Source: Sanghuangporus weigelae (lineage: Eukaryota > Basidiomycota > Agaricomycetes > Hymenochaetales > Hymenochaetaceae). Taken from it: a stretch of DNA of 64,000 nt. The notes below the pieces were generated by a model. The model was not told where the DNA came from. It ran no database searches and saw only the letters and a list, made by a program, of their open reading frames with translations. The stretch's first letter is position 1. Each line of letters starts with the position of its first letter. This document shows positions 31,111 to 59,170 of this stretch, in pieces. The position numbers were made by a program, and so were the translations under genes. The stretch covers positions 2,108,001 through 2,172,000 of the forward strand of contig CP137319.1 of assembly GCA_033182465.1 (NCBI GenBank), given 5' to 3'.

Positions 31111-32663
31111 TGCAATGAGTTAGTTACGCCGCGTCAGCTCAGTCGTAACGGACACGGCAAGCCAGCACGAGAGCAAGGAGCGAAAGAAGGGCAGCCCAAG
31201 TTTGAAAGGAACCATATCAGTCGGATTTTATACGTCTCCAGGTGTCTAATCAGTCTTGGCTAGGCGAGAAAGCAGATGAGTCCGAGGCCATGATCGTCCC
31301 TCATGGCTAGAATTATTGATCAGGCCGCTTCATGCCCATACGGTAGCAGATCCGAAAGAGAATGTCAACTTTCCCAGAACATAGACTCCGGAGCATATAT
31401 GGAACATAAAGTTGTCTGAGGTTCCCCGACGCTCCTAAGGAAGGAACAGAGGTCAATTACTTGAAACCGCAGATAACGAGATGCCCGATCATAGGTCGCT
31501 GCGCATTGGCGTTTTCTTTATTTTCTCTTGACATTTTTACAGTTGAGAAGTTTGTCGTTCCAGGAGATAGTTTGGACTTCATTGCCGTCGAGCATAAATG
31601 CGTTGTTGTCGTCGCCGACATGGTCGGTCAAGGCTATGAGACCCGCGCGTCGGCGATCGGAGGGGACGCGAGTAAATTCAAACTCCGAATCTTGTTGAGC
31701 ACGAAACGCGCCGCACGTGTTGCGCAGACTCTCTCACGCACCATGATGCAGATTTCATCGACGACCAAGCAGTGTCTTTCATCTTTATCACTAAATTCAT
31801 GTGCTGCATTGCCAAGCCTTGAGCTTCTCGAACGTCTTGTTTGCCCATATCGAATCCTATTCGCGCGGTTTCACACACGTCAGCACGGTTTTCTTGCAAT
31901 TCCCGGTCCGAGTACCATGCAGTCGCAACACATCGGTGTAGCATGAGAACAACTGTGTGACCTTGCGACTGATATGACAAGAGGAGATAGACACTTTGTA
32001 TTTAGTATTTGGACGGGCGATTTGCAGGCACAGGAATGACGACTGGGAACACAGGAACGGAACTCTTGGGCATGTTGGTCACATCCCCACGGCACATCGA
32101 AGACCTTGTCTTTCAACCGACCACCCAAACCTAATACAGCATGGTAGCCCAGACGCGAAAAGAGCGAACCGGGAAGCTCTTCAATACTGGCTATTTAACA
32201 CCCACGATGTATCACCGCCCATTGGCGTCAATCTCAGCAAGCATCACAACAAGTGTCTTCAGGCCCAAATCCGCATCTCGCGTGGAGAAGATCATTGTCA
32301 TTGAAGTCCCAAGTGGAGATGCAAGTCGACTGGCTGACGCTCCTTCGCAACACAGCGTGCTCGATGCCATCAAGACTGCGCGCTTCCTGGAGTGTCTTGC
32401 TCGGAACATAGCTACTATCAGCGAGAAAGAATATACACGAGGCGCCGAAGGTGCTAATCGAGTAGAGTTGTTAATATTGCTGCTGGTAAATTCAGGGATC
32501 GAGAGAGAAACGAGCAGTCCATATCGATTATGATTGATACTCCCTTTTCTGCCATTTTTAATCCTTCTGTTTTCTGATTCTTGTTCTCAAGCGCCTTTAT
32601 TGCTTCCCTTTTCGATTGTGAGATATTGGACTTATCTCATCTATATATTTACGTATTCAAGTA
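31111..32663. other. Decayed duplicated flank of the DUF2235 units
   Basis: No intact gene. Positions about 31490-31920 resemble 36540-36900, 45600-45790 and 48710-49030. Positions about 32140-32640 resemble 39540-40070 closely. These are repeated flanks of the duplicated units, with short open frames that shift between copies. A coding origin cannot be excluded, but no frame is conserved. Confidence 0.55.
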
Positions 32664-33131
32664 CAGTTGAAATTGTCATAGTGCATTGAGTCATAATGCA
32701 AAAATCTTATAATGCATTGGGTTTGGGCTTCTCCCGACTTGGGAGAAGGGAAATTATGCAAAAATTTCGTATTGCATAATGCATTGCATTTTGGGCCAAT
32801 TTATGCATTTTAATGTGCTATTTTTGTGAAATTTGTCCATCAGTCACCATATTTGGGCATTTTGTCTCAACATTAGTCACTATTATGTCATACTTCCGAT
32901 CACTGTCAAGTTCTTACAGTTGCAAATAGCTAATTTCCGATGTGATTTATGAAATATTTCATCATCAGCTTACTCAGGTTAGTCCCAGAAAGGCTAATTT
33001 CAAGCAGAAAGAATAAAGTTCATCATTTTACTTAATGCAGAAGGTGATTCCCACGCACCATGTTGCATAATTTTCATAATGCATTAGAAAATGCCTTCTC
33101 CCGACATTATGTGTTATGACAATTTCAACTG
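32664..33131. mobile_element. Mariner-type MITE, 468 bp
   Basis: Ends are inverted copies starting CAGTTGAAATTGTCAT, flanked by the TA dinucleotide (32662-32663 and 33132-33133), as expected of Tc1/mariner-mobilised elements. The interior is AT-rich with repeated AATGCATT-type words and no coding capacity. The homologous flank of the 40.7-kb copy (about 40075) reads straight through with a single TA, so the empty site is present in the same window. Confidence 0.88.
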
Positions 33132-33133
33132 TA

Positions 33134-33691
33134 GGTACGTAAGAGACGCTGGTCAGACCTCCGTTATTTGGAAATAATTATGTGTAAGGTTCCTGACTGA
33201 AGTTGTTCCTACCTATACGCAGTTTCTGAAATACGTGCACGGGATATAATCGGTCATTTGGCCCTTGTCCTCTATGAAATGAAAACTTTACACGGGAAAG
33301 TGCGTCATAATTAGACAAAGCATATCTATATATCACCAGATCGAGGTATCTAAGTGCTTTCTACTTTTACTCCTTTCATTTCGGCACACAGATACACTTT
33401 ACATGTAATTCTCATTCGGAACTTGATATAAGTGTATTCGATGGTAGCTACTAACTCATCTCATTTAAATAAACGTTGATATACTATCTTTATGAAATCG
33501 GCCATTATTATGTAACTGTCAATAATCAGCTTTCAATTATCAATGTGAAAATCAATCGTGTCGAGTCAAGTGGTCAGTATGGTACTAAGTCTAGTAGTAC
33601 TAGTGAAGTGACATTGTCCCCCGTGTCTTAGGAGATGACTTATAAGCCAGAGCTCTCCTCACATTTTGTCTTATAATTCTCTTCCAACGCA
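33134..33691. other. Upstream flank of DUF2235 copy A
   Basis: Similar to 40080-40697 and 46900-47184, upstream of copies B and D. Conserved upstream position suggests promoter-proximal sequence. The TATA-like element is listed separately. Confidence 0.6.
33637..33648 (+). promoter_or_regulatory. TATA-like core promoter of DUF2235 copy A
   Basis: GACTTATAAGCC lies about 50 bp upstream of the ATG at 33692. The same ACTTATAAGC string occupies the same relative position before copies B and D. Confidence 0.65.
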
Positions 33692-34960
33692 ATGGCTCGA
33701 GCCGCTTTTCCCAGTGCGAGTCAGCCATCGCCTTTACAATTCAGACACACTGGTTTCACACACACACTATTCTTCGACCATCCTCTGTCAGCTAACAACG
33801 ATGATCATGTCATTCGAGACTTGAGGTATGCCAGAAGCGGGACAATGCGGGTAAAACAGAGGACGAGAAGTATGGCTTGTATCACTATGTGAGCCCTATG
33901 TAGCTGCGATTCTATTCCTTTGTCTTAATTCTCCGATGATACAGAATGCTCTCAACGAGTCTAGCGAGCGGCGTGTGTGTAACAGTATTCGCAGGCTCAT
34001 TCCAGGGAAATTCGAGCCTATGCGTGATTATTCTAAGCTGATTGAAAAATGTCATAAGAAGATTGTTGATAACTGTGAGCCATGATGGCATCTGTCAGAT
34101 GGCTCTATCCGCTTATTTCACTAATAGATGTGATAGACGAAGAAGAAGAAAGAAGAGACTATATATGCATATTAGGTGTTGGCGAAGGGGCTTATCCTGC
34201 AATTACGATTGCTCAGATTCTTAGCAAGGTTTGCGCTCAAGTCCAATTATTGTATTGACAATTCTATCTACCTACGGGACATAGGTCGGAATCATACAAA
34301 AATGGGCTTTGGAATTGGAAGACAACTTTCCCCTGGTGTTCAAACTCGCCATAAGCAGAAGGCATAATGATAAAGCACGCGATAACTTTGTGAGTACCCC
34401 TTTCCATGTCTTGATAGACGACACGCTCACTTCTGCGTTAGAGGGAGATATGGACACAGTTTGCCCGAGTTGACTTGTTCTGTCTTGACAAAGATATTCC
34501 GGGTAGCGACAAAGTGGGCGAGAACATAGGTTACTGTGAGTTGTTCATCCCAGATGAAGTATACGAAGTGTCGCGAAGAGGTGACAAATATTAGCTAGAC
34601 ACTGCAGCAGAAATAAACTCCCAGATGTATACAAGTCGATTTTCCGAACCTCTGCAAAGAGACACGAACCAAGGATCGTGCCGCAAGTCTCTCCAGAGAG
34701 GGTTATTGAGGTGGAAGCTAAGTTGGCGGAGAATATCCAGAAGCGAGACTAGGACAGAGCTTGCAGTGTTCCGTGGGAGCCATTCCGGTGAGCAGATTCT
34801 TCGGAGTAGCTTGTTGGGAAATGACTTAACAGATATTTCATATAGACATTGGTGGTGAATCTAAAAGCAGTCCCGTTTGATCCCCTTACGATATGCCATC
34901 GGCAAGGCTAACACTACGCATTTTCTAGGGAACATCCAAAGCTTCACACAAGAATCAAAA
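33692..34960 (+). pseudogene. DUF2235-type alpha/beta-hydrolase copy A (decayed)
   Basis: Nearly collinear with copy D. Exon 1 (SGFTHTLFFDHP...) lacks 13 bp relative to copy D just after the Arg-Tyr-Ala codons, so the frame is lost at the end of exon 1. Exon 3 gives DYICILGVGEGAYPAI, matching the IYLFGFSRGAYTAR region of DUF2235 proteins. A later exon gives VFRGSHS followed by DIGG, matching the family's GVHSDVGGG histidine motif. At the elbow the usual G-x-S-R-G is G-V-G-E-G, so the serine nucleophile is missing. DUF2235 proteins belong to the alpha/beta-hydrolase fold and include bacterial Tle1 phospholipases; the fungal role is unknown. Further decay toward the 3' end; no intact product expected. 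Confidence 0.68.
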
Positions 34961-37030
34961 AATAGTTTTATCATTATCGAATAAATATTTATACATTTAT
35001 TAATTTTTATTGGCTTCACAAAATGTACATTATTTGTGTTTAATTTTTCAAAAGTAAAATAGACAGGGTAGAATGCATGGACTTCTCTACTGATGCAGAG
35101 AGACGAAGAATCATCTGCCGACGAAATAACGGAAGCATCCACATGGTGGATGTTCGCCGGCTCGTAAGTGTTCTACTTTTATTTATTTGTCTTCATTTGC
35201 TTAGATCGCGCTCACTGACGTACGCGGATTCAGAGATCCAAAGCAGGTCTACTGGACACTTCATCACTGCGAACAGACCAGACCATATCAACCCAAAGCA
35301 CGTCTTCCGGAGCCGCGTAAATACACGGTTTGAACTACATAGGAACAGAGTTGATCGAGTCTAAGACTAGTGTTTAATGCTCTAATGCGACGTCTTCCGA
35401 TTACCTTGCAAAATATTATCAATACCGTCAGAACTTTCAGTGACTGTTGACCCCGGAAGATTGATACTGCTACCCCAGAATCCTACCTTGTGGATGATCG
35501 ATAATCTATTATTCTATTCCCAGCCAAGTAATAAAGATCGTATCCATAACGAGATTCATCCTGGAGTGGCTATAAGACCCTTCACTAAAAATGACCAGTT
35601 TGGTACAATGATTGTTCGATGCTCGGAATATTCATTGTATTGTGCTTGTATTTACATCAATAAGGGTCATCTGAATTCCAAACTGGGCAGTTGAGTCGGA
35701 GCATGAACACTGCTTCAACAAAACGCGCTGAATATGCTTACTTTCAGACCATACTTGGTGTGCTATGAATCGAATCAGATAAGACTGTTGCCTTTGTTCT
35801 CATTGGACATTGTCAGATGAAAACAATTTGAGACCGCTTTTTTTGTGCACGTTTATGAGTCGCCTGGGAAAGATCATTAAAGCTACGACCGGAAATAAAA
35901 CAAACGGACAATACTTACCTTCATTGGCTATTTTCTGATATCATCAACAATACCATTGCCATAACATACTCATTCAGCGGTAACAAATCGCCGACCAAGC
36001 ATGTGGCATCGAGGCTTTAGGAAGAGCAAGTTTGTTCCACCTATGATAAAGCCAAGAATCGATGAAAATCTTCGTCGGGAGAAGTAATAGACCATAGTCT
36101 TTCGGTCATCATAGTGGGACCTTCTGGGCGAAAATTGAATTATACCTAAGCTTCGTAAACTGATCGTCCGCTCGAGACCCAGCGTCTTCATGGAAAAACT
36201 TGTCAAGCCAGAGTGAGTCACAGATTGAAGCTACGACGGTTACTAGAGCTTAGAGACGCCAAAGATATAGAATGTCAGAACTCCGTTGATTCAGCGCAGT
36301 CAGTCTTCAGAGCATGACCAACACTAAATGTTGTGGGCATTCATGACGTTGATGTGAAAGCCTCAGAACTCAGCCTGAACTGTGATCTGGTGACGTGTCC
36401 TCGCCTAATGGTCGGCGTCCAGGCCAAAGGGAAACACCAGCCCAGAAAACGAAATTTTAGCGATAGGATTGCGTGTCTTCTCCGATGTTCCTTGGGAAGA
36501 AAGATTAGTTTACTTGGACGCGGTAGATAACTGAAAAGCTAATCATAAGTCGCCTTCGCACTATTGGCGAATATCTTCTTTGTTTTCTCTTGAGGATTTT
36601 GCGGTCATGAACTCTGTCTGTCTGAGAGCTCTGACGCCAAGCATAAAGAGGCAACGACACGGCTGACTAAGGCTAAGAGATGCGCCGGCGATCGGAGGAC
36701 ACGAGACAAATTCCAGCTCCGATTCGTGTTACGTGTCGCACGCGTCGCGCAGACTCTCATCTTTCTTTCTTCTCTGACATACCATGACACCAATCTTATC
36801 GACCGCCAAACAGTGTGTCTTCCGTCTTGTCACTAAATTTATGTGCTGCATTCGGTACACATTTACGCGTTGTCTAGCGATTCCCGGTCCGAGTAGCATG
36901 CAGTCGCAATACATCGGTGTAGCTTGAGGACGACTAGATGACCTTGAGTCTGATCTGGCAAGAGGAGACAAGGGCTTCTTCGGAAGATAATTGTATGCTA
37001 TCTTAAAGATTGAGATGGACGATTTGCAGG
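34961..37030. other. Downstream flank of unit A, duplicated at 44.7-45.8 kb
   Basis: No intact gene. About 35655-36540 aligns well with 44745-45600, and 36540-36960 with the flank copies at 31.5, 45.6 and 48.7 kb. 34961-35650 contains only short open frames (for example 35077-35364) without recognisable domains. Confidence 0.55.
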
Positions 37031-39399
37031 CACAGATATGACTTCAATATCATGTCCTTCCAAGATATTATAGTACGTCCATCTAGGTTCAATCGTCATA
37101 TATTCATATTTTGATGTGTTCGTCTAGAATCATGCCGCGAGTCTGAATTGCTGCTGCAGAATCTCATGGTCATGCCGGACATTGGGCAACAATATTGAGG
37201 AATAGTCATCTGATGATCATATGATGCAAGCTTTCTTGGTCCAACTCTACAGACGCCGCCTTGAATGCTGATAACGGAGTCAAGTTGAATATGAAGGCGA
37301 TTGTTCCACCGTCGATTTGATTCCGAACCTAACCCTCGTGCTATTGCATTGCTGTTCCATGTGCGCTGTTTGCTATTTTCACGGATCTCTATCTCTTTAC
37401 TATAATTTATAGACTATTGCAAGGTCGGAAAAGTTACCTCCATACCACGTAGGTCTCGGTGTTCTTAGCTACGTAAGTTACTGTTGTGATCCATTATCAC
37501 CCCCAGTTCGCGACCCACTAAGTGGGCAGCTTAAGGTGGTTAGCAAAGCATTCAGCCTCAGCCTATTCAAGCCGTATTTGATACATATCCGGAGGAACAA
37601 CAATGCAAAGCACTTCCTATTACTGTCTGATTCTGGGCTTTCGCGTCACGATGAAGCGAGTTGGAAGGTTTCGCCCTCGCAGGACATTGCGCTGCTACGC
37701 TCCAATCGGAAATTTGCGCGGATCCACACACATTATTCATGTTCGTTTGCCCGCGAAAGCTCGCGTACGCAAAATATATTCGTCTTGCTTTTCCACGAAC
37801 CCCAAATTTTCCAACTCCAGGAGCTCATTCAATATATATCCCGTTTAATTTAACGTGGAAGTATGTCACGCCTCGAATTTCTTTCCGCGCCAGTCAAAAT
37901 CTACCAGAACTGTGCTGAAGCATCACTCTGTGTATCGGTCATTCATGGTCGCCTTCACGCGAGATAAGAGTAGTTCGGAGAACACCATTCGGATGTCGTT
38001 GAATCTCATGCTGGCTCGCGCGGTCTCCATAATCACCACTTTCAGTACAAAATCGATGAACGTATGCTCCCGCTCCCGGTAGTCCAGACATGAGCAAAGC
38101 AGATCAGAAGAATAGAAAAGAGCCATGTGGTCTTTCAGTTTAGTGGTATGAAAGAACAGCAAAGAAGCGCCATACGGTTTTACAGGTACGCCAACAGGAG
38201 ACTCGGGCACAAAATTTCGTTCAAATTATCCGGATTTGGTAGACCGCTTGTGTAAACTCACGTCCATCAAATGGTTGAAAGAACCTTGATGATATGTGAT
38301 TAAAAAATCTACCTTTCCTCGGCATAGTTCAGAGTGAGTTATTCAGTCCCAGCTTGATCGTCTTGATCTTTTCTGACAGCAGCATACTGAACACTCGTAC
38401 TGCGTGGTTCCGTAAGTAAGTGACCTTATGCCCGTGAGAACACGAGTTAGACTCGATTTATGCGAAAGGTATTCACTGTACTCCTTCTCTATCATCTAGG
38501 AGCCCTATGAATATCCCAGCACCATTCAACGTGGAAGGATTCCACGCCTCGCAGTCCGCCTCGTGGAACTCGAAGTCAACGTGGAGTTCCCGATCTAAGT
38601 AGACGGACGTCTTCGCACACAATATCAGTCGCACTATGTCTTTCCCTGAAAACAAGGATATTCCCACATCGTAGATCTCCAGGGTCGTGCCAGGGTATAG
38701 TCCTCTTTATGTACATCTGTGTACATCTATTCTGGATCTGGATCTGGCTTGACTCTTGGAGTTGCCTGACACCCGAAACTCTTTCCCGTGCTACTCGCGC
38801 TTATACTTCTCTTTCGGTTTGTGGACACGGACCTTTCAGCGTGAAATTGACAACGGGTAGCCACAGATGGGTATTTTACCGATAGCGATTCCTCACAGAA
38901 TTTTCGGGGCATGAAGAAGGCGCAATGAGCACGAGTGCAGAGGACACTAATCATGGTACAGGATGACTTCACCCTTCCGATTAGCAAGTCAGTCTGTATC
39001 GAATGCGAGGGTCAGAGATCAGTCAAGATTGGCCGAGGAAATACACTGAGCGCCTGAACCTCAGAGATAGTCTATATCACTACCGACTGCAGGATATTTT
39101 ACAAGGCTGGGGTCGATTGGGACCGCTGCGACGAAACCTTCATCTTAGGTTCAGGTTCATGGCCTTCGGATGTGCAATTACTAGTGCTTCGATTATCAGG
39201 AAGCCTGAGAACTCTCGTCGTGTGGAATCCGACAATGTCACGCTCGGAGAAATCATGAATCCGGAGTTACATGAGCGCCATAAGTAGGACTGGTGCCAGC
39301 TCAGAAGGTACAGATGCTGCTTGTGTAAGACTAGGAGGAAGATCGGATTCGAATTTGAACTCACTGAAACTTTCCAATAAAAAGCAGGGGATCCTAATA
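37031..39399. other. Accessory stretch without a recognised gene
   Basis: About 37240-37400 resembles 45950-46090 and 56280-56400. On the minus strand, 38667-38473 encodes LHVDFEFHEADCEAWNPSTLN and, near 37890-37850, a weaker FEAWHTSTLN echo. These could be two remnants of one duplicated coding segment. No start, splice structure or domain could be established. Confidence 0.45.
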
Positions 39400-40697
39400 A
39401 ATTAAATGATACGAATAGTGGTGCTCAGACATAGGGCGAGGCTAAACGTCCTGGTTCACCCGTACGTACTAGCTCGGTCGGTCTCTCCCATCTTTATCAC
39501 TCCAATACAAACATACCAAAATGAAAGCAATGCTCATGGCATCCCAAACGTGAGAAATCCCCGAAAGAGCGAATCGGGAAGCTCTTCAATGCATTTCAAG
39601 TCTGGGCATTTCAATAACGCCCACGATATATCACCGCCCATTGGCGCCAATCTCAGCCAGCATCGCAATCAGTGGTTTCGGGCGCGTATCCGCATCTCGC
39701 GTGAGGAAGATCATTGCCATTGAAGTCCTTAATGGAGATGCAAGTCGACCACTTCACGCAATACCGCATGCTCGATGCCGTCAAGACTGCGCGCTTCCTG
39801 GAGTGTCTCGCTCGGCACATAGCTGTTGTCAATGAGAAAGAATATACACGAGGCGCCGAAGGTGCCAAACGAGTAGTGTTGTTGATATTGCCGTTGGTAA
39901 ACTCAGGGATCGAGGGGGAAACGCGCAGTCCATATCGATTCTGATTGATGCTCCCCTTTCTGCCATTCTTAATCCTTCTGTTTTTCTGATTCTTGTTCTC
40001 AAATGCCTTTATTGCTTCCCTTGTTGATCGCAAGATATTGAACTTACCTCATCTATATACTTACCTATCCAAGTAGGTCTGTGCGAATCGTTGGTTCGAC
40101 CTCCTTTATGTGGAAGAATCAAGGTTCCGGACCGAAGTTATTCCCTATCTCCTGTATATAGTCTGTATATAATAATACAGTTTCAGAAGATACATGAACG
40201 GGATGTCACCGGTCGTTTGACTCTCGAATCCACTATGAAATGAAACCTTACATGCACGAGAAAGTGCATCATAATCAGACAAAGCATAAATGTCCCCAGA
40301 TCGAGGTATCCGAGCGCTTTCTACTTTTGTTCCTTTCGTTTCGGGACCCGGACGCACTTAAATTCTCATTACTATATGGAAGTTCAGAAATGATATGTAT
40401 ATATGCATTCAATGATAAGTGAAATATTAATGTTGGTCTACCATGCACAAATATGAAGTCGGCCAATCTTATGTAACTATCAATCAGTTTTATTTTCTTA
40501 CAAGCCTCAGCGCTATGCGTACCCGTAATACGTATATATATGTGCGTCTATTTTTATATATATAATTGAATATCAAGGCGAGCCAAGTCAAAATGCATAT
40601 AATTCTGTGACACTATCGTCATAAGGTCATGGGGGAGACAACTTATAAGCGGGCTTTTATCTCACACATTGCATTGTAAACCTCTCCATCCACTGCT
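39400..40697. other. Upstream flank of DUF2235 copy B
   Basis: Matches the flank of copy A (32140-33690) with the mariner-type MITE absent at about 40075. No intact gene. The frame around 39600-39944 differs between the copies, arguing against a conserved protein. Confidence 0.6.
40641..40650 (+). promoter_or_regulatory. TATA-like core promoter of DUF2235 copy B
   Basis: ACTTATAAGC sits about 50 bp before the ATG at 40698, as in copies A and D, although the sequence around it has diverged. Retention of the core string suggests function. Confidence 0.65.
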
Positions 40698-41650
40698 ATG
40701 GCTGCACCGCCACCGGGTCATTTGAATCCGCCTTCCGAGTTCGAATACTCTGGTTTCACACATATACTATTCTTCAACGGTCCTCAGTCAACTGGCAACA
40801 ACACTCTTGGCCTCAAAGCGTTGAAGAACTCTATAAAGGAGGAGAAGAATAATAGGGGGGAGAAGAGGGAGAGGGAGGTGACGACGCAGGAGGATGATGA
40901 GGAGTATGGCTTGTACTATTTTGTGAGTTCTATGCAGCCGTGGTTCTGTTGCTTTCTCCTGATTTTCCGATAATACAGAGTGTACCTGGCAGGCCTATCG
41001 AGCAGCATCAGGGAACTTTGCAGAGTTTGGCCAAGAGAATTACAGGGAATCAAGAGTCTACGCATGATTACTCTGAGCAGATCAGAAACGGCTACAGGAA
41101 GATTGCCTATAACTGTGAGGCGTGATAACAATTTCAGGTGGCTCCGCTCGCTTATTGCACTAATAGACATGATAGACGAAGAAGAAAGAAAGAGAGACTA
41201 TATATGCATATTTGGTGCTGGTCAAGGGGTTGAGCCCGCGATCGCGGTTGCCCAAATTCTTAGCAAGGTTTGCGTTCAAGTACAATTTTTGTATCGACAA
41301 TCTAATGGACTACGTGACTTAGGTTGGAGTTATACAAGAATGGGCTTTTGAAGAGAACTTTTCCTTGGTGCTCAATCTCGCCACAAGCAAAAAGTACACT
41401 GATGAACAACGCGAGAACTTTGTAAGCATAGTTTCCCATCTGTGATCAGCCACCCGCTCACTTCTGCCTTAGCGGCGTGTGCGGACACAGCATGCTCGGG
41501 TTGACTTATTCTGTCTGTCAAATGACAACGCAATGCTGACGAATGATCAGAACATTAATATGTGTGAGTTGTTCATTCCCGAATGAAGCGTAAGGAGCAT
41601 TTACTGACGCGATGAATTATAATAGGCACACTCTGCCAGGGTAAGACTGA
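40698..41650 (+). pseudogene. DUF2235-type alpha/beta-hydrolase copy B (C-terminally truncated)
   Basis: Open through five inferred exons: MAAPPPGHLNPPSEF and SGFTHILFFNGP; DYSEQIRNGYRKIAYN; MIDEEERKRDYICIFGAGQG; VGVIQEWAFEENFSL; RTQHARVDLFCLSND. The intron before the elbow exon (gtgagg ... ctaatag) is 52 bp and has a good branch-point string ACTAAT. The family's elbow G-F-S-R-G is G-A-G-Q-G here, without serine. The C-terminal half with the HSDIGG histidine motif seen in copies A, C and D is absent; an internally duplicated stretch follows instead. It could still make a short protein, but it lacks two of the three expected catalytic positions. Confidence 0.6.
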
Positions 41651-41651
41651 T

Positions 41652-41789
41652 CATCATAACGCTCAGCTATTGGCCGAATACAACTCGATTTTCCCAGTCC
41701 TGCCACAGAATAATGCTGGTCATCATAACGCTGCAGCTACTGGCTGAATACAACTCGATTTTCCTAGTTCCGACATCACAACCCAAACC
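41652..41789. repeat. Imperfect ~69-bp tandem duplication
   Basis: Two diverged units with a 69-bp period, each starting CATCATAACGCT and sharing GAATACAACTCGATTTTCC. They lie at the 3' end of copy B. Confidence 0.75.
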
Positions 41790-41879
41790 AATGTTGCGGA
41801 TGTTGCGCCGCAAGACACGTCAGTGGAGAACATTGTGCTAGATTCATTGCGGAAGGAGGCTGAACGCAAACTGAATCGA

Positions 41880-42325
41880 TCTTATTTTTAGAGACCTTAT
41901 TGTATCCCCGTATGGTGTTATCGTTGTAACAATACATTCTGTAAACGCGATTGCTCCATTCAATTATCCACACCGATGCTGTCGGAATGTTAAATTGGCC
42001 GATCAGTCAATCAAAGATCCGCGACATGGTTAATTTAGTACTATTTCTGTAGCAGCACGACCCCGATGCGCGCAACCAAACTAGGGTCCGCTTCGTCTGT
42101 GCGCTTTCTTGCCATGTTGCGTTATCCCATTACTTGTGCGACTGCTGGACTGAAGAGGCAATTTGTCAAGGTACGCGGAATCTTCTATGGCGCCTAATAG
42201 CCCCGTGTTAATTAAGATAAAGGTCGAGCTGGCATTTTTTGATGGACAATTACCATTTCACAGCTTCCTCGTCCCCCCCCTCCTCCCCGACTGTTCTTCC
42301 CATTTGACTATCATTGTTCAATCCA
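41880..42325. other. Intergenic between copies B and C
   Basis: No gene or recognised repeat. It includes a C-rich stretch near 42270-42290. Confidence 0.5.
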
Positions 42326-43903
42326 ATGGACCACGAAAGCGACCGTACCCACCACGTCTTCCTGCTGGACGGAACTAGCCATAGGTGCGTCATGTTCAAT
42401 CTCGGCATAAATAATGCAGTTCTGACAGCAATGTTTCGGGTGGGCGTTAGCCTCTTGAGTCTGAAGAAATCCCACATTTATCGATTAAATACTGGTCTCA
42501 TCAACAATAAAACCCGGAGCTTGAACCACCCGCGTCGATGTCAGCAGAGAACCTATTACGAAGTAAGTGTGTCCTCATAAATCTAGGGTCGTCAACTCAT
42601 GATAGTCACATCAGCCTGGAATTGGTGCAGAACCAGGCCTAAGAGACAAAGTTGACTCAGCCCTTGGGTTTACTTTTGATTCTCGCGTCGCCGGAACGTT
42701 GAAGAAGATCGCAAACAAGTGTAAGAGATTTCCTGCACGGTTTTCCTACTCTTCACTCTTACAGCCGATTCTTAGGGCGTGAAGGGGATTACATAACTCT
42801 TATAGGTTATTCCCGCGGGGCCGCCGCAGCTATGGTATTGGCAAGATATATCAAATTAGTGAGTACTACAATTACAAGCCAGAACTTTGTCTGACAATCA
42901 AAACAGATGGGAATCCCGAACCAAGATGAAGGAGAAGAAGAACTTCGTAAGCAAGTCAAGTTATTAATCCGGAAGCATGGTAATAGTACCAATGGATTCG
43001 TGAATATAGTGCGTACTATTCTGCTTTATTTTGAACTATTTTACTCAATTACGTATGAATAGAAAGGAAGTCGCGAGGCAAACCGCCAAAGCGTATTAGT
43101 GAATCGTCTGATCCTATTGCATGTTCAGTCTACTTTTTTGGCCATGGATATTATTCATACATGACTTTCTAGTGATCCAGTCGCGACGACACTAACTTTG
43201 GGCAAGGACAATGTGATCTTTGAAAGCCATGACGCAAGCCAAGTTATTTGCTGTTATTCGGCAGACGAGAGTCGTGCTCTATTTTCTCCAACTCAATACG
43301 TTGTACTTCCTCCGACTGAAGACGTTGTACCGAATATTTCAGAGTTTGCGATTTTCTGCGGAGGCCATAGCGGTAAGCAGATCCTTCAAAATAGCCCTGC
43401 TGGAAAATGACTCATTAAGTGATTCGCCTAGATATTGGTGGTGCCTCTGGCAGTTCCCTCTCTTATATCCCATTGCGGTACGCCATCACCAAGGCACATA
43501 CTATGCAGCCTCAACTGCGTTTCAAGGTGGACTTTTTGTTCGATCATTTCCTAGACCGGCTCGATCCAAGAACTCCCCCTCTTCTTCCTGATAACAAAGT
43601 GGACTATGATCATTGCAGAAGAAATGACCCAGATTTGTTACGGCGGGCCGATCAGTTAGACTCTAAAAGCAACATAACCAAACCGAGGGACATGAAGTGG
43701 AAGATACTGTAAGCATTCGACCCTTTTACATTGCCTTTTGATAGTGCGATTAATTTCGCAGTCCGATTAAACACAGGAGCTTTGGAGATCAAAATAAAAT
43801 CCTAGTCCACTGGACGGTGCGTCACCGCGAAAATGTCAAAGACGTGAAATATGGGTATAAAGTCAAGGCGATACTTCCGCAGAATTGTACATATACGGCT
43901 TGA
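42326..43903 (+). CDS. DUF2235-type alpha/beta-hydrolase, copy C (most complete)
   Basis: The best-preserved member. The start MDHESDRTHHVFLLDGTSH matches the family's opening FDGT motif; exon structure just after it is uncertain. Later exons give RTYYEPGIGAEPG (family YYPGIGT), KWREGDYITLIGYSRGAAAAM with the canonical G-x-S-R-G nucleophile elbow (spliced 42720-42774), SADESRALFSP (family DERRAxF), CGGHSDIGGASGSSLSYIPL with the catalytic-type histidine, and a C-terminal VHWTVRHRENV (family VHxSVxxR). The stop is at 43901-43903. DUF2235 includes phospholipase-type hydrolases in bacteria and large uncharacterised families in mushrooms. Sequence suggests an active serine hydrolase, substrate unknown. 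At least eight exons; the exons around 43010-43170 are unresolved. Confidence 0.72.
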
Positions 43904-45822
43904 CCTGGAGCAATAGAGTTGCCTGAGTTCACAATGAGTATCAAATGTTCTGCAGCAGCGTAGGCACAAGATGAACCCTTGGGTCACATATCTAGGCGAG
44001 CGCTATTGTAAAGGGACTGGAAAACTTCGTGGATGTGTTGTTGTTTGAGCTTTGTGACTCTCGTTTTTAAACATCCGCACAACCTTGAAGCGACTGTAAC
44101 CTGTCTCGTCGAGAGAGAAGCAGCTGAGCCGAGGCATTGCTCAGCCAAGTTGGCAAGCTCAAGATACACTCGATCCTCTCACTCACTATTGCTTGCATAT
44201 ACTTCCTAGAACATTCTTCTCTCGAGATCAGACCGGAGGAAACAAAGCGTAATGTCAGCCGCAAACTGCACTAGAAATGTGCAATCCTCTCTGTATGTCA
44301 TTTTGCTGACATCTCGAGTAAAATAGGGGCTGCGTTACGATATGGTCGCCGACCAACTGTGGAGTCAACCTAATTGGACGAATCTGAGTTCTTTTGGCAC
44401 GATTGTCTGGAAATACCGTACCATGGACAGTAAGATATTCATCTCCGCTTGTTCAAAGTGTATTTGATATGTAACCAGAGGGATAAAGACCGAGTTGAGA
44501 AAGCGAGCTAGGTACGCTATCTATGCTGCACGCGAAGAAGCGAATCGGAAAGTATCGCATTCGCAGGATATTCCAAGATCATAGGCAGGTGCTCATCGTG
44601 CTCCTTCTTCACCAACCCGAATGTTTCGAACGTCGGGAGCGCAGTCAACATCACCCATATCATTCAACGTAGTAGAGTACCTCGCTCGTGAGTCCTTTTC
44701 ATACCAGTCGAGGTCGATAAAGCCTGCTCTGTATTTACATCAATGATGGTTATCTGAAATCCGAACTGGGCAGTTGAATCGAAGCGTGGACACTGCTTCA
44801 ATAAAACGCTGAATATACTAACTTTCAGGCCATACTTGGTGTGCTATGAGCCGAATCAGCTAAGATTGTTGCTTTTGTTCTCATTGGACATTGTCAGATG
44901 AAAACAATTTGAGGCCGCTCTTTTTTCACGGACGTTTATGAGTCGCCTGGGAAAGATCATTAAGAACTATGACTGGAAATAAAACGCACAATACTTACCC
45001 TCATTGACTATTTTCTGATATCCGTCAACAATACCATCGCCGTAACATACCCATTCAGTGGTAACAAGGCGCCGACCAAGCATGTGGCATCGGGGCTTCA
45101 GGAAGACTACGTTAGCCTATGATAAAACCAAGAATCAACGAAAACGTCGTCGCGAAGAAGTCTTTCAACCATTATAGCGGGACCTTCTGGGTAAAACTTG
45201 AGTTATGCCTAGGTTTCGTAAACTTCTGATCGTCCGCTCAAAACCCAGCGTCTTCATGGGAAAGCTTGTCAAGCTATAGTGAGTTGCAGAATGAAGCCAC
45301 GACGGTTACCGGAGCTTATAGATGCCAAAGATATAGAATGTCAGGCAATCTTCAGAGCATGACCAACACTAGATGCTGTGGGCAGTTATGACGTCGATGT
45401 GAAAACTCAGAGCTCAGCTTGAAAAGTGATCTAGTGGCGTGTCCTCGCTTAATGATCAAGTCCAATCCAAAGGGAAATACCAGTCTAGAAAACGAATTTT
45501 GGCCATAGGGTTGCTTGATCTTCTCCGATGTTCCGTAGAAGTGAAGAAGGAAGTAACAAATTAAAGATGAGTTTACTCGGACGGAGATAGCTGAATAACC
45601 AATAATAATTCGGTCATGAACTCTGTCGTGCGTGTCGGAGACCTGTCTGAGATGAGAGCTCTGACGCCAAGCCTAAACGTTTCGCCATCGGCGACATGAT
45701 TGACCAAGGCTAAGAGACGTGCCGGCGATCGGAGAGGACGCGAAACAACTCCAAGCTCCGATTCGTGTTACGTCATACATCTTTCTTCCTTCTCACTAAC
45801 CGCGAGCCATCATACCAACTAC
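43904..45822. other. Downstream flank of unit C
   Basis: 44745-45600 aligns with 35655-36540, and 45600-45790 with other unit flanks. 43904-44740 contains only short minus-strand open frames without recognisable features. Confidence 0.55.
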
Positions 45823-45924
45823 TCGTATCCGTATGAGACCTTGACCACCAAATATACGGTCGTATCCATATAAAGCTCGAGTTATACGGCCGTATCTTCC
45901 GTATACGATACGGTCGGAACCCTA
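45823..45924. mobile_element. Fragment of the ATACGGCCGTAT-rich hAT-type element
   Basis: Inverted relative to, and closely similar with, the left ~110 bp of the element at 50164-50782. It ends in the same ...CGGTCGGAACCCTA terminus at 45924. The other end is missing, so this is a truncated copy. Confidence 0.7.
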
Positions 45925-47128
45925 ATTCTTGGTCGGACTCTATACAAATTGTGCCTACTTGCGTGCGGATAACGGAGCCAAGTTGAATTTAACCACGGTC
46001 TTTATGATCTACTGCATTCCATCATCCGCCATCGACTTGATCCCGAACTTAAGCTCGTGCTATTGCTGTTTCATGCACTCGGTCTGCTGCTTTATCTCTC
46101 CACAGTCAGTCAACGGCAACGGACTCTCGTTCCCGATAGGTTGTCGTCACGTGCACTGAAGTAAAGAGCAGCGATCATCTCCAGCTTCATCTCCAGCAAT
46201 TCACCAATCCAACTTGAAAAGGACCGCTGCGACCTATGCATCCTGTTTTCTATTAGCGACGGGTCGTGGACTGCTTGATTTTCAAGTGCAAATATTTGTG
46301 CATTTACTACAGATAAGTGCTAGCAACAACGTGGTCTCTCTGCCCATCTTCGCTGCAACTTGAAGCCCAGAATTCTGTCTACCTTGAACTATATTTAACC
46401 ATCCTGAATACCATGCCCAAATCAGCCAGAATTCACGTACATTTTATGCCGGAGAGCCATATGCATATGGCTCAACTTCCGATCCTGAATTTGGTGATTG
46501 TCGAACTAGTGCGACAACAGAAAGTTATAAAATACACATCTTTAAGTTGTCGCTTTTATTCTTAACGCTTGCTCTTCTCGTCCTTTTCAATAACTCTTAC
46601 ATGTTATGGTGGTGCTTCGACCTGCTTTTTCTCTTTCGCCCTCGTCATGTCTTTACTGTCGTGAGCTCGGAGCTTATATGCACCAGGATCATCCTTCTTG
46701 AAGCTCGAGGAGCTCGGGGCATGTCTCACTTACTATAGGAAGCGCACGACTCACCCTCCTCATTTGGAAGTTTGTCTTCCCCCCTCTCTTCCTCCAGGGC
46801 TGGTCCTCGATTCAATGCCGTCGGGTCACTACAAACTATTTGCTCATCTGGGACACTTTTCCCGAGCTTGCTCAGAGGATGAACCTGCAGAACAAAGCAT
46901 ACATTGTCTAGGGGGTTCGGAAAGTGCATTCGATGGTAACTCGTCTCTTTTAAACATTGATATACCGTCATACGAAATCGGCTAATATTATGTAACTGTC
47001 AATCAGTTTTTGTAATTATCAATCTGAATCAATGTCGAGTCGAGTCAAGTGAAAGTGGTCAGTGGGGTCAGTATGGTTCTAAGTAGTGGAGTGGTGACAT
47101 TGTCCCCCGTCACAAAGTCTTAGAAGAT
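45925..47128. other. Upstream flank of DUF2235 copy D
   Basis: About 46200-46900 aligns with 61040-61660. About 46900-47128 aligns with the regions upstream of copies A and B. 45950-46090 matches parts of 37.2-37.4 and 56.3 kb. No intact gene. Confidence 0.55.
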
Positions 47129-47140
47129 GACTTATAAGCC
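47129..47140 (+). promoter_or_regulatory. TATA-like core promoter of DUF2235 copy D
   Basis: GACTTATAAGCC lies about 50 bp before the ATG at 47185, identical to copy A at the core. Confidence 0.65.
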
Positions 47141-47184
47141 CAGAGCTCTCCTCACATTTTGTCTTAAAATTCTCTTCCAACGCA

Positions 47185-48470
47185 ATGGCTCGAGCCGCTT
47201 CTCCCAGTGTGAGTCCGACGCCGCCTTCACAACTCAGACACTCTGGTTTCACACACACATTGTTCTTCGACCATCCTCCGTCAGCTAACAACGATGATCG
47301 TGTCCTTCGAGCCCTGAGGTATGCCATAAAGCAGGGGGAGAAGCGGGACAACGCGGGTGAAACGGAGGACGAGAAGTATGGCTTGTATTACTATGTGAGC
47401 CCTATGTAGCTGTGATTCTATTCCTTTGTCTTTATTCTCCGATGATACAGAATGCTCTCAACGAGTCTAGCGAGCGGCGTGTGTGTAACAGTATTCGCAG
47501 GCTCATTCCAGGGAAATTCGAGCCTATGCGTGATTATTCTAAGCTGATTGAAAAATGTCATAAGAAGATTGTCGATAACTGTGAGCCATGATGGAATTTG
47601 TCAGATGGCTCTATCCGCTTGTCTCACTAATAGATGTGATAGACGAAGAAGAAGAAATAAGAGACTATATATGCATATTAGGTGTTGGCGAAGGGGCTTA
47701 TCCTGCAATTGCGATTGCTCAGATTCTTAGCAAAGTTTGTGCTCAAGTCCAATTATTATATTGACAATTCTATCTACCTACGGGACATAGGTCGGAATCA
47801 TACAAAAATGGGCTTTGGAATTGGAAGATAACTTTCCCCTGGTGTTCAAACTCGCCACAAGCAGAAGGTATAATGATAAAGCACGCGATAACTTTGTGAG
47901 TACCCCTTTCCATGTCTTGATAGACCACGCACGCGCTCACTTCTGCTTTAGAGGTTTATACGGACACAGTTTGCCCGAGTTGACTTGTTCTGTCTTGACA
48001 AAGATACTCCGGGCAGCGATAAACTGGGTAAGAACATAGGTTACTGTGAGTTGTTCATCCCAGATGAAGTATACGAAGTGTCGCGAAGAGGTGACAAATA
48101 TTAGCTAGACACTGCAGCAGAAATAAACTCCCAGACGTATACAAGTCGATTTTCCGAACCTCTGCAAAGAGACACGAACCAAGGATCGTGCCGCAAGTCT
48201 CTCCAGAGAGGGTTATTGAGGTGGAAGCTAAGTTGGCGGAGAATATCCAGAAGCGAGACTAGGGCAGAAGCGAGACTAGGGCAGAGCTTGCAGTGTTCCG
48301 TGGGAGCCGTTCCGGTGAGCAGATTCTTCGGAGTAGCTTGTTGGGAAATGACTTAACAGATATTTCATATAGACATTGGTGGTGAATCTAAAAGTCAGCT
48401 CCGTTTGATCCCTTTACGGTATGCCATCGGCAAGGCAAATACTATGGAGCCAAAATTGCGTTTCAGGTTT
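47185..48470 (+). pseudogene. DUF2235-type alpha/beta-hydrolase copy D (5' half intact, 3' end lost)
   Basis: Exons 47185-47394, 47451-47580, 47634-47734 and 47791-47895 join in frame, and a fifth begins at 47952. They encode SGFTHTLFFDHPPSANNDD, RRLIPGKFEPMRDY, VIDEEEEIRDYICILGVGEG, VGIIQKWALELEDNFPLVF and RTQFARVDLFCLDKD. The 3' part still shows VEAKLAENIQKRD followed by a stop, a 17-bp tandem duplication (48251-48284), VFRGSRS and DIGGESKS. At about 48470 it is joined directly to downstream-flank sequence, so the C-terminus is deleted. The elbow is G-V-G-E-G, without serine. Intron 47581-47633 looks at first like a 24-bp intron, but the acceptor at 47633 is the one that keeps frame with copy C. 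Confidence 0.65.
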
Positions 48471-49503
48471 GCCAGAGAACCTCGGACTACATGGGCAGTT
48501 ATGACGTTGACGCGAAAGCTCAAAGCTCAGCCTGAACTGTGATATGGTGGCGTGTCCTCGCCTAATGATCGGTGTCCATCCCAAAAGGAACTATCAGTCC
48601 AGAAAACGCAATTTGGGCGACAGAGTTGCGTGGTCTTCGATGGCCTTGGAAGGGAAGAAGGAAGTAACAAAGAGTAATTTACTTGGATGCGGTAGATAGC
48701 TGAAAGGCTAATCATAAGTCACCTTCGCACTACTGGCGAAAATCTTCTTTATTTTCTCTTGAGTTTTTTGCGGTCATGAATTCTGTCGTCGGGGACCTGT
48801 TTGAGAGCTCTGACATCGTCGAGCATAAAGAGGCAGCGACATGGCTGACCAAGGCTAACGGATGCACTGGCGATATCGGTGAACACGAAATAAATTCAAG
48901 CTCCGCTTCGTGTTACGCGTTGCACCTTTCTTCTTCCTCACGAACCATCACGCCAGCTTCTCGAAAGTCTGGTTTGCCCATATCGAACCCCATTCGCGCG
49001 GTTGTCTCATAATTCCTAGTCCGAGCAAGCAGCATGCAGTCGCAAACGCCTTTCTTTAGCATGGGAATGACCAGATGGCCTTGTCGATGAATTTAAACAT
49101 CTGCTTCTGATACTATCATCTGGGAGATCGAGGCAGACAATCTGCAGGCACGGATGTGACTACAGCGGTAGTTGTCCCCTTTCATGAGAAGTGGAGGATT
49201 GGAACGGGGTATGTTGATTACACTTCCATCCACGATAGATCGCAAACCTTGATTTTCAATTGGTCATCTGGGCCTCGCTGCGTCTCTTCGGACAGTTTCT
49301 CCTTCCATCTCCCAAGAAATTATTGTACGTCCCATCTAGGTTCAATCTCCATGCACTCACATTTTGACGTATTCCACAGTCAGTCAGATCGAGATACCCT
49401 CCCGGCTCACGTAAGTCTGTGGCTGTGGCATCCATATAATAGTGGCGCGCAGCACCAGCACCTTTATTTGATACTCTTTACGACGCTAGCAAGGAGACTC
49501 AGC
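48471..49503. other. Flank between DUF2235 copies D and E
   Basis: 48490-48720 matches 36330-36560, and 48710-49060 matches the other unit flanks. 49156-49500 is open in the frame of the next copy, but I see no conserved motif before the ATG at 49504. Confidence 0.5.
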
Positions 49504-51150
49504 ATGTCCGACCCAAACCTTTACACACTTTATGGTCTCAACGATATCAATCGGGGAAGGGAAATTCGTGCATGTGGCACTCAGCGTGTTGTGCTGTTCG
49601 ATTGTCCCAAAGCCGGAGTAGACGATGCTGTAGATGGTCAGGACGAAACGCAGGGCGAAAATACTAAACGCATCGTCACAAAATTCGGGGCAGTGAATAG
49701 TCCTGCTCTTGCTGGTCTATTGAATAGTTTGCCTTCGGCTCATGCTCTGGACGTCCATGTTGTGGTAAATTTCCACTTATCTCATACAAGGTTGTCCTCA
49801 GAGGTCGAATTGATTCTTTCCTCTTCAGTCCTGGGCAGACCCAGACCAGGAAGAAGAACCCAATAATACGTCCTTTTTTTTTCGTTCATTGTTCCAAATG
49901 GCCAAGCATGTATTGTCCAACAAGTCCAATATACATGTTGACAGTCAGGTTCGTCGCGGATACCATCATCTTGTAAGTCATAGGCGCTTTAGTCATAGCC
50001 CCTTTTCTGGCATCCTCTGATCGACGTATTCCAGACTACGTTAATTCGAGACTTAATGGTGGAGCAAGGGACGCGATATATTTGTTCGGTGATGCAGAAG
50101 GTGCTCGTGCTGCTATCGACGTTGCTCGCATCGTGGCCAACATAAGTAGCGCAACATTGTCCCTAGGGTTCCGACCGTATCGTATACGGATACGGCCGTA
50201 TAACTCGAGTCTTATACGGATACGACCGTATGAAATACGGCCGTATATTTGGTGGTCAAGGTCTCATACGGATACGGAACACCCGTATACGGGAATACGG
50301 CGTATACGGAGGTTCCGTAACTCTACCACATCAGGACATACTAACAAATATTTTTTCAAAGTGTTCAAAGTCTATCTCGATACAATGAAGGTTCTGTTCA
50401 CTGATAATGGTGCTTAGGGATGATTTTCATAGCTGTCTGGGAAGATCAGCGTGTATGTGCTCACCTTGTGTGAATAATCGCTTACCTGGTTGCATATTGC
50501 CAAAATTTTTGCTGACACCAGTCCTGCCGTGCTTGGCAACACTCAAATTATGATTTCCAAAGAAAATAATATGCTCCCTGCATGGAAGGCAGGAACAAAT
50601 ACCCTTCCAAAGGGCATGCGAGGTGGAGTTCCGTATATGGCGCATATGCCGTATACGGCATTTCTTTCCCAACTCTATACGGGATACGGCCGTATATTTT
50701 CTTCTTTTTCTCTTATACGATACGGCCGTATCCCGTATACGGAACGCCGTATACGCATTATACGCATACGGTCGGAACACTAATTGTCCCAAAAGGAATG
50801 CAGACACATTGCTTTTCGTTCCAGGTGGGAATTCTCCAACGTGCCTGGATGAAAACGTTCGACGAAATGCTCAATGCAGGGCTGCGTGGTCAGCTTGAAG
50901 ATTGGGAGTTTTACGTGAGTTGGTCCAAGTTTGCCCTCGCCTGTCTGCTGTAAACTTACCTATCATCTGTCGTAGTCAATTGCCCGAGGATGGGATACTC
51001 GTGTGGAGTTACTTGGTCTCTGGACTGATGAAGCATTACCTCGTCTGGCCCTATCAGAGACCCTACCGGTGTGGGCGTCCAACTCGAGTATTCCAGATCC
51101 ACGTGTATGTTCCCTGAGTATCCCTATTTGCCCGATGATTTGCTGACGGG
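49504..51150 (+). pseudogene. DUF2235-type alpha/beta-hydrolase copy E (divergent, interrupted)
   Basis: The most divergent copy. It starts MSDPNLYTLYGLND; a first exon with RVVLFDCPKAG (family LCFDG-like) ends near 49765 and is followed by WADPDQEEEPNN. The elbow exon at about 50042-50130 reads NGGARDAIYLFGDAEGARAAI, aligning with IYLFGFSRGAYTAR but with alanine in place of the serine. After a hAT-type insertion come VGILQRAWMKTFDEML (50826-50919) and RVELLGLWTDEALPRLA (from about 50980), equivalent to the family's FVGVWDTV. Beyond 51110 the frame becomes uncertain and no HSDIGG motif was found. The product, if any, would be catalytically unusual. Confidence 0.55.
50164..50782. mobile_element. 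Non-autonomous hAT-type element, 619 bp
   Basis: Ends are inverted: TAGGGTTCCGACCGTAT at the left and, on the other strand, TAGTGTTCCGACCGTAT at the right (one mismatch). It is flanked by a perfect 8-bp duplication ATTGTCCC (50156-50163 and 50783-50790). An 8-bp duplication with TAGGG-type ends is characteristic of hAT transposons. The interior is full of ATACGGCCGTAT palindromes and has no transposase. It sits in what is probably an intron of copy E. Confidence 0.88.
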
Positions 51151-51237
51151 CACTTATTTTAGACAGGCAGGCGCTGTGGTCAGTATTTTTACGACGTAAC
51201 TGACGGAGCATGTCGTGGAGTATGCTCCTCGCAGACG

Positions 51238-51885
51238 TTGGTTAGCAAGCTTCGGGACTTGTTCAGCATCGCGGATCCGCTGGCGGCAGACGAGGACGTC
51301 AGCGAACAAAGCGACTCCCATTTTCAGGCTGAAGTGACGTCGCAAGGCAATGCCGGCGTAGATAGCGCTTTGCCTGGTGCTCGTGTCTGCGAAGCGCGGA
51401 AGACCATTGAAGAACCCGTCGTGGCAGATCTGCAGCCGATTGTTGAACAAGAGGAAGTGCGAGACGCGTCTCCATTCACTTTACGAGGCGACTCAACTGC
51501 GGATGATCGATCGACACGTACGCCTGCCGCAGACTCGGAAAGTGCTGTTTCCGCAACTCCTCCCGTCCAGCACGATCCCTTCAGCCAGAAGTAACGAAAA
51601 AAACGAAAATCAGACAAAGACATAAGGGTATCCACCGCAGCCTCGTCGAGCAAGACGTCTAGCGACGAGGTTGATGAGCCTTCAGGACCTGATACCAAGT
51701 CAACGACCTCGGGCGTAGACAGAGGTGGGCGACTGTCGTTAAAAGATGAAGCGCGCTCCGAACCAATATATGGAGATCTGACGATAGTCACGCACGATAC
51801 AGTCGGTTTCGCAGAGCGTGACCTTGGAATACATGGCGGCTTGATCCCAGACGAGTTGATGAATCTAATTTATGTGGCCCTTTGA
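51238..51885 (+). other. Unassigned acidic open frame with one in-frame stop
   Basis: An open frame from 51238 runs to a TAA at 51592-51594 and continues in the same frame to a TGA at 51883-51885 (216 codons in all). Content is Glu/Asp/Ser-rich (VSKLRDLFSIADPLAADEDV, later KSTTSGVDRGGRLSLKDEA) and ends in DELMNLIYVAL. It lies just 3' of copy E and may be its C-terminal extension or an unrelated remnant. No domain recognised. Confidence 0.4.
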
Positions 51886-58049: not shown

Positions 58050-58283
58050 TGGCAATTACTAGTAGAGCGACGGTACCGCCGATTACCAGGAGAGCGACGG
58101 TGTCGCCGATTACCAGGAGAGCGACGGTGTCGCCGATTACCAGGAGAGCGACGGTGTCGCCGATTGTCAAGAGGGCGATGGCGCTGCCGATTCCCAGGAG
58201 AGCGGCGGGGTCGCCGATTACCAGGAGAGCGACGGTGTCGCCGATTGTCAAAAGGGGGATGGCGCTGCCGATTCCCAGGACCG
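58050..58283. repeat. 27-bp minisatellite, about eight units
   Basis: Units of 27 bp (GCCGATTACCAGGAGAGCG plus CGGTGTC and variants). Because 27 is a multiple of three, the array is open as nine-residue repeats on both strands (P-I-T-R-R-A-T-V-S on plus, D-T-V-A-L-L-V-I-G on minus). Both are likely artefacts of the repeat. Confidence 0.9.
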
Positions 58284-58794
58284 GGGATAGCTCTGCCGAT
58301 CACTTGCGCAGTGGCGAGTGAGCACGTGCCCCTGTTATTCCCTTAAACGGGGGCGGCGTCTTGTGTCGGCACACGATCTTCGGCGGAGGCGATAGAGAGC
58401 AAAAGGGCTAATAGAGACGAGAGGAGTGCACTAAGATCTATTCTGAACTACTGCTTCTGAACACTACATACATGAGGTCTATATATACTGGGGAATGCTG
58501 GGGAAGAGCGTCACAGAGACGGCGACAGTGACGGCGCGTCACAGGCGCGCAATCGGTGCGGACCCGAAGATCGGGGCGCGCTGTCGGTCGGCGGTGTTGT
58601 ATCTGAAGGTGCTACAGATGTCCGTCCTACTAAGGGTGCTGAATGTATGAAGGGACCTCCAAAAATGGGATGCCGACGCTATCAGACTCTCAAAGACCTA
58701 CTACCCGGCAGGTGCCAGGAACCGTCGGAGACGTAATGGATGGGTCTAGGGATGCCGCTGGATAAAGGGAATAGGATAACAGGACCGCCGCTTG

Positions 58795-59170
58795 AGAGGG
58801 GGGATCACAGGGGGCTGCCGACGTGGTATAAACTCGGCCACAGGAAGGTATGAAGTGTATAAGATGAATATAAAGGATAAAATGGAGTGAGTGGCTGGAG
58901 AAGGCGCCGCTGGGTCGTCTGATAGGATGCCTGGGTCGTCGGATGGCCGCCGACGTCGAATAGAGGGGTGCCGGACTGAGGGGGAGGCCGCAGGAATCCG
59001 CCGCAGTAGCGTAAACGCGATAGATGAAAGGAAAAGACCGTATAAGATCAATATATGGGATAAACTGGAGTGAAAGGCTGGAAAGGACGCAGAAGGGGAG
59101 TCTGATGAGATGCCTGTGTCGTCGGATGGCCGCCGACGTCGAATAGAGGGGCGCCGGATCACTGAACGTC
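58795..59170. repeat. ~183-bp tandem duplication
   Basis: Two diverged units; GTCGGATGGCCGCCGACGTC recurs at 58938 and 59121, 183 bp apart. Open on the minus strand but without a recognisable protein family. Confidence 0.75.

Follow-up and report, generated by a model that had tools for sequence, protein, structure and literature searches.

Serine-less short copies of a DUF2235 hydrolase beside an active-looking gene in Sanghuangporus weigelae: a probable pseudoenzyme subfamily with modest constraint

The occurrence, in one fungal gene array, of several hydrolase-like genes without the nucleophile serine beside one that retains it raises the question of whether the former are spare copies in decay or proteins kept for a role other than catalysis. 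The array, an island of five genes of the DUF2235 family (copies A to E), belongs to Sanghuangporus weigelae. The window, i.e. the whole stretch of DNA that was analysed, covers 64,000 nucleotides of contig CP137319.1 of GenBank assembly GCA_033182465.1 (here contig C2, 2108001-2172000; the genome comprises 33.87 Mb in 13 contigs). DUF2235 corresponds to PF09994 (T6SS_Tle1-like_cat) and to Tox-ABhydrolase-1 of a survey whose motif list includes DG and GxHxD, and in which the family is already on record in fungi (PMC3482391). The toxicity of Pseudomonas Tle1 requires a Ser-Asp-His triad (PMC13133936). Two fungal papers name DUF2235, in both cases among expression changes only. Literature searches yielded no known role of fungal DUF2235 proteins, and the papers that pair the family with fungi deal, by title, mostly with bacterial secretion systems. 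Searches for DUF2235 with Agaricomycetes, Tle1-like proteins with basidiomycetes, DUF2235 as a pseudoenzyme and an uncharacterized alpha beta hydrolase of a basidiomycete returned no literature, and one on pseudoenzymes and a catalytic serine gave a single unrelated paper. The reading proposed here, with a probability of about 0.58, is that the serine-less copies form a birth-and-death subfamily of pseudoenzymes, which lost the serine once and whose members have been kept as proteins; new short copies would arise in tandem, and some of them would decay.

The preliminary description of this stretch had recognized five DUF2235 copies, and all five were confirmed as PF09994-like (Table 1). The nucleophile elbows were also as described, i.e. 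GYSRG in C, GVGEG in A and D, GAGQG in B and GDAEG in E. When PF09994 was run against all six reading frames of the genome, a search that reads exons singly, 15 matches were listed at E <=0.001 and none in the window, where introns are about 50 nt long. Gene models were spliced at GT-AG sites, plus one GC-AG site in copy C, and a profile search with the spliced products, proposed earlier as a check, placed B, C and D above the curated Pfam cut-off of 27 bits (profile length 287). Copy C appears to be an active hydrolase, judging from its predicted product. It matches PF09994 over positions 4-285 of 287, and after splicing it retains the Ser, Asp and His motifs GYSRG, RLILFDPV and GGHSDIGG, with Asp assigned by alignment. 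Its GC-AG intron occupies 43119-43172, and the FDPV junction uses the GC donor. Genome searches found at least two complete genes of this C-type, the other being C7a on contig C7 (367 amino acids; 27.2 bits, just above the cut-off). C and C7a have the intron phases 2,0,1,0,0,2,1 in common, with one extra intron of phase 2 in C, as well as the motifs GYSRG, F-D-P-V and HSDIGG or HADIGG. All five ordinary DUF2235 genes used for comparison (two on contig C1, one each on C8, C9 and C13) carry GFSRG.

The serine-less genes are not confined to the island. Members of the subfamily were collected by protein searches of the genome and by reading each locus; the searches score the best candidates only, and the counts are therefore lower bounds. 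Five further short copies were found on four other contigs: C7b, C11a and C11b (each GDGEG), E2 on C8 (GDAEG) and C1n on C1 (GDEEG). With the four serine-less copies of the island included, the short members number at least nine on five contigs (C1, C2, C7, C8 and C11), and these nine are called short copies throughout. The elbow follows G-[DVA]-[GAE]-[EQ]-G in nine of nine, the nucleophile serine is present in none, and GxHxD occurs in none of the nine gene models. An intact DG is likewise found in none: B has NG, and in the other eight H, C or R replaces the glycine (DH in A and D, DC in E). Because the serine, GxHxD and the intact DG are absent from all nine, the short copies are excluded as Ser-Asp-His hydrolases, provided that the models are right. 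Six of the nine (D, B, C11a, C11b, E2 and C1n) are fully open from start to stop, at 257-293 amino acids, and each of the six has six exons with intron phases 0,1,0,0,1. E2, at 293 amino acids, has GT-AG sites throughout. In C7b the frame is open through exons 1-4, with phases 0,1,0 in common with the six; by eye, no open continuation was found beyond exon 4. The earlier suggestion of a subfamily that gave up catalysis is supported by these findings, as five more copies share the elbow pattern, the exon plan and the loss of GxHxD, and most of the nine are open. C11a and C11b, about 9.5 kb apart, are part of a roughly 9.5-kb tandem duplication (C11:1402500-1419000; loci L030 and L031), which has also copied an opposite-strand open reading frame (ORF) of 497 amino acids that has the appearance of a multi-pass transporter.

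In B, D and their relatives the catalytic residues are lost and an open frame is maintained, which is one mark of a pseudoenzyme. A and E carry lesions that define pseudogenes, namely a 13-nt deletion relative to D in exon 1 of A, which breaks the frame, and an AT donor with a frame mismatch in E. The most serious alternative to retention is relaxed selection on spare copies, also raised in the preliminary description: the short copies would be functionless tandem duplicates at various stages of decay, and the open frames would be the survivors. This account fits the frameshifted A, E with its splice and frame damage, and the interrupted C7b, but less well the six other copies, which at pairwise protein identities of 23-48% (97% for C11a/C11b) are still open across five introns. 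In 2000 runs of a neutral simulation at a distance of 0.366, D was free of stops in a proportion of 0.0005, and B and C11a in none, i.e. the probability of no stop at the B/D distance is <=0.001. Moreover, when all pairs of the six open copies are compared, each of the 57 non-zero length differences in exons 1-5 is divisible by three, whereas for introns this is true of 18 out of 66, although these pairs are not independent and the comparison is partly circular, as splice sites were picked with the frame in view. The ratio of nonsynonymous to synonymous substitution rates (dN/dS) between B and D is 0.55 over exons 1-5 (bootstrap 0.38-0.82), with 0.35 (0.13-0.67) in exon 1, 0.42 (0.15-1.18) in exon 5, 0.43 (0.19-1.4) in exon 6 and 0.33 (0.08-1.08) in the elbow exon, where dN (0.164) is the lowest of the B/D exons. 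The ratio is 0.37 (0.26-0.55) for E/E2, of which E is decayed, and 0.60 (0.26-1.56) for A/D; more distant pairs were set aside, because their dS is saturated.

Besides the dependence among length differences, several results weigh against retention, and part of them speak for relaxed selection. The B/D ratio reaches 1.42 (0.63-3.75) in exon 2 and 0.85 (0.24-4.35) in exon 4. B and D are less alike in exons (66.8%) than in introns (74.0%), and their dN over exons 1-5 (0.347) is close to the intron-core distance (0.366), by which yardstick the constraint is weak. For E/E2 the identities of exons and introns are about equal (68.7% vs 68.1%), the C11a/C11b ratio of 0.72 (0.20-2.95) is uninformative, and three of the nine copies (A, E and C7b) are damaged. 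Taken together, the results suggest that the frames have been maintained, under modest constraint at the residue level, and an account of the whole subfamily by relaxed selection seems unlikely, though it deserves to be taken seriously.

A further alternative concerns the origin of the serine-less state. The preliminary description had proposed independent loss in three ways, and according to this account A/D, B and E would each derive from an active ancestor; the difference among the pentapeptides GVGEG, GAGQG and GDAEG speaks for it. A and D are products of one duplication (33430-34916 vs 46922-48444; 90% DNA identity over 1.5 kb, with a divergence of 4.8% in exons and 4.0% in introns), and GVGEG therefore counts as one elbow event. 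The six-exon architecture, shared as far as each copy is open, and a linker insertion point instead to one old loss. The alignment covered seven short copies (all but A and C11b), and six of them have the insertion, which precedes the elbow strand (as in NYVIDEEEEIRD); E has it in part, and it is absent or much shorter in the C-type and ordinary rows, and C2far, a longer serine-less copy about 0.5 Mb from the island, has a similar linker. The loop pattern common to nine of nine, the intron phases and the absence of the GxHxD half argue in the same direction, as does the fact that no short-form copy with the serine was found among the best candidates of the searches of this genome.

The trees, computed with IQ-TREE (supports given as SH-like approximate likelihood-ratio test/ultrafast bootstrap, SH-aLRT/UFBoot), are in partial agreement. 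In two trees that retain the elbow, the short copies split from all others at 96.4/92 and 93.8/90. The serine-less pairs D + B and E + E2 group at 98.9/100 and 99/99, respectively. With the elbow masked and the full set, the short copies form a grade of weak support in which C-type genes are interspersed, a result that favours independent losses and tells against a single one; when E and C7b are omitted as well, the four copies D, B, C11a and E2 split from the rest at 84/69. The single origin of the short form is therefore argued mainly from the shared architecture, more than from the tree, and we infer that the serine was lost once, with later drift at the loop; separate losses in A/D, B and E are improbable. 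C2far retains the C-terminal half (73.9 bits for a partial join against PF09994) and, with the elbow masked, groups with the ordinary copies (in one tree it joins the C8 copy at 65.6/48, in another it stands beside all five at 94/70). It could represent either an intermediate or a loss of its own.

The weakest alternative is that the strand and the helix, together with the glycine-rich loop (often G-x-G-x-x-A), form a putative ligand-binding turn with a new binding role instead of an empty nucleophile elbow. It would suit the low dN of the elbow exon (0.16 for B/D) and the E or Q at position 4 in nine of nine short copies, and the modified loop may resemble a dinucleotide-binding turn, but it is highly improbable, as alanine replaces the second glycine in E and E2, and glutamate does so in C1n, and searches of PDB sequences for relatives gave nothing beyond ribosomal-protein matches at E 1.1-1.2.

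The layout of the island bears on how the retained and decaying copies arose. The HSDIGG motif, noted earlier wherever present, belongs to copy C; beside A and D it cannot be part of the gene. The stop codons of A and D lie at 34752 and 48262, the HSDIGG and RSDIGG stretches lie beyond them, and both align with the 3' part of C, its intron included, i.e. they are remnants of another gene. The motif was therefore rejected as a component of either gene. Upstream sequence is shared in part among A, B and D, and the shared stretches have no match upstream of C or E, so that a promoter common to all five copies, as had been supposed, is unsupported. The island is best explained as a local array produced by duplication of a unit consisting of a serine-less truncated DUF2235 gene and a full-length C-type gene. 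In the simplest account, there would be three copies of a unit made up of serine-less gene, C-type gene and downstream repeat; this follows from the order of the pieces, and unit 3 is without the upstream repeat. Unit 2 (B and C) is complete. In units 1 (A) and 3 (D) the HSDIGG part alone of the C-type gene is retained, and these two of three units would have lost most of that gene. A dispersed transposon was considered as the origin of the flanking repeats and judged unlikely: DNA searches with 35600-37000 and 31480-32680 found copies inside the island only among the matches listed (E <=0.001), and ORFs taken from two repeats had no Pfam match at E <=0.01.

Copy A is decaying, judging from its deletion, and E is a separate, decaying member of the island. 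The earlier statement that splice sites are kept is borne out in A, B, D and, with its one GC donor, C, but not in E, in which exon 2 ends in a phase unsuited to exon 3, in addition to the damaged donor. Intron 3 of E measures 683 nt, against 54 nt in its relative E2, i.e. about 630 nt extra with a repeat inside. In the Pfam scan, which covered exon 3 and exons 4-6 of E as two pieces, no match was obtained. The position of the 3' end of B is made uncertain by an internal tandem duplication of 53 bp, and an alternative model ends at 41841. A short inverted-copy repeat rich in TACGGCCGTA (45824-45924 / 50164-50276, 82%) occurs in the island and within intron 3 of E, and a stretch at about 50630-50790 resembles it.

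Table 1. Positions of the DUF2235 genes, gene remnants and repeats (window coordinates, except for the last row)
Feature	Position	Strand	Remarks
Copy A, serine-less DUF2235 paralog (GVGEG), frame broken	33692..34752	+	6 exons homologous to D
Exons of A	33692-33888, 33945-34074, 34128-34228, 34285-34389, 34442-34535, 34595-34752	+	
C-type 3' remnant (HSDIGG exon and its intron) after stop of A	34755..34920	+	68% DNA identity to 43340-43507
Copy B, serine-less paralog (GAGQG), 257 amino acids open	40698..41747	+	6 exons; PF09994 29.0 bits
Exons of B	40698-40922, 40979-41114, 41167-41267, 41323-41421, 41473-41563, 41626-41747	+	
Copy C, predicted full-length DUF2235 hydrolase, 378 amino acids	42326..43903	+	9 exons; PF09994 89.2 bits, E 4e-25
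Exons of C	42326-42384, 42451-42562, 42615-42720, 42776-42858, 42907-43008, 43063-43118, 43173-43372, 43432-43708, 43762-43903	+	
Copy D, serine-less paralog (GVGEG), 265 amino acids open	47185..48262	+	PF09994 28.6 bits
Exons of D	47185-47394, 47451-47580, 47634-47734, 47791-47895, 47952-48045, 48105-48262	+	
C-type 3' remnant beyond the D stop codon, with an Arg codon in place of His (RSDIGG)	48282..48465	+	71% DNA identity to 43340-43524
Copy E, serine-less paralog (GDAEG), decayed	49504..51594	+	exon-3 donor AT; exons 2/3 unjoinable in frame
Pieces of E	49504-49761, 49829-49972, 50035-50141, 50825-50914, 50976-51104, 51163-51594	+	
Repeat upstream of A	32159..32663	.	paired with 39564-40075 upstream of B (83%)
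Repeat upstream of B	39564..40075	.	partner of 32159-32663
Repeat downstream of unit A	35643..36741	.	partners 44725-45773 (77%) and 48492-48925 (79%)
Repeat downstream of C	44725..45773	.	partner of 35643-36734
Repeat downstream of unit D	48492..48925	.	partner of 36334-36741
C2far, longer serine-less DUF2235 copy (GAGEG)	C2:2651218-2652220 (L036)	minus	about 0.5 Mb from island

Around the island, minus-strand ORFs at 29883-30326 and 54301-55044 match a class 3 lipase (PF01764) and a thiolase. Elsewhere in the window, repeated BTB/POZ-like genes were observed (3471-6020 / 10493-11054; 67-69% DNA identity), with two of three tested ORFs matching PF00651, and a G+C-rich stretch at 57998-59158 contains imperfect tandem repeats spaced at about 81-183 bp.

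If the short copies are retained as pseudoenzymes, their proteins might act by binding, since no other explanation of their maintenance is left once catalysis is set aside. Binding, most simply binding and tuning a C-type hydrolase, is put forward tentatively. A C-type partner is suggested because both complete C-type genes found adjoin a serine-less gene on the same strand at less than 600 bp (579 bp from B to C, 239 bp from C7a to C7b). The earlier picture of one active-looking hydrolase beside pseudo-hydrolases recurs in this way at a second locus on another contig, and a regulatory pair is therefore more plausible; the decoy or self/non-self roles raised earlier would be further possibilities. 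The pairing is not obligatory, as no complete C-type neighbour adjoins E, E2, C11a, C11b or C1n, which make up five of the nine, and the gene order varies, with B before C but C7a before C7b; both points count against such a partnership. The C7 pair lies near an ORF of gag-like appearance and near one that resembles the window ORF 58690-59223 (L029 1299-2189, 66-584; by eye). A bolder and rather doubtful extension, drawn by analogy, is that dispersed half-size serine-less proteins form two-gene cassettes with a full-length hydrolase, in which the dead partner inhibits, masks or activates its live neighbour, and that these cassettes duplicate and lose parts quickly, like self/non-self or conflict genes. 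The serine-less/C-type pairs offer a concrete, testable pair for the targets and control of DUF2235 enzymes in fungi, and the date at which the presumed pseudoenzyme clade lost catalysis could be set with related genomes.

The short copies can be compared with several known systems. With the PF09994 family itself, a profile score over the cut-off is shared by B, C, D, C7a, C7b (exons 1-4, 31.7 bits), C1n (31.7 bits) and C2far (partial join); the short copies differ from it in being without the Ser nucleophile, the GxHxD half and the intact DG, and C11a (23.3 bits) and E2 (25.4 bits) stay below the cut-off. In the prozyme of trypanosome S-adenosylmethionine decarboxylase (AdoMetDC), a catalytically dead paralog regulates an active partner (PMC5201418). 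The coexistence of a dead paralog with an active-looking one is similar here, where the two are physically linked at two loci; unlike full-length dead enzymes, however, the short copies are without about half of the domain. With immunity-type or prozyme-type partners, the cassettes proposed here would have in common a dead half-enzyme derived from the enzyme itself. The beetle pectinases are a multigene family rich in pseudoenzymes (PMC6549527), in which, as in the present case, dead copies pile up by gene duplication within an enzyme family. That is a different enzyme family, whereas here a common truncation and exon plan mark what is probably one dead subfamily.

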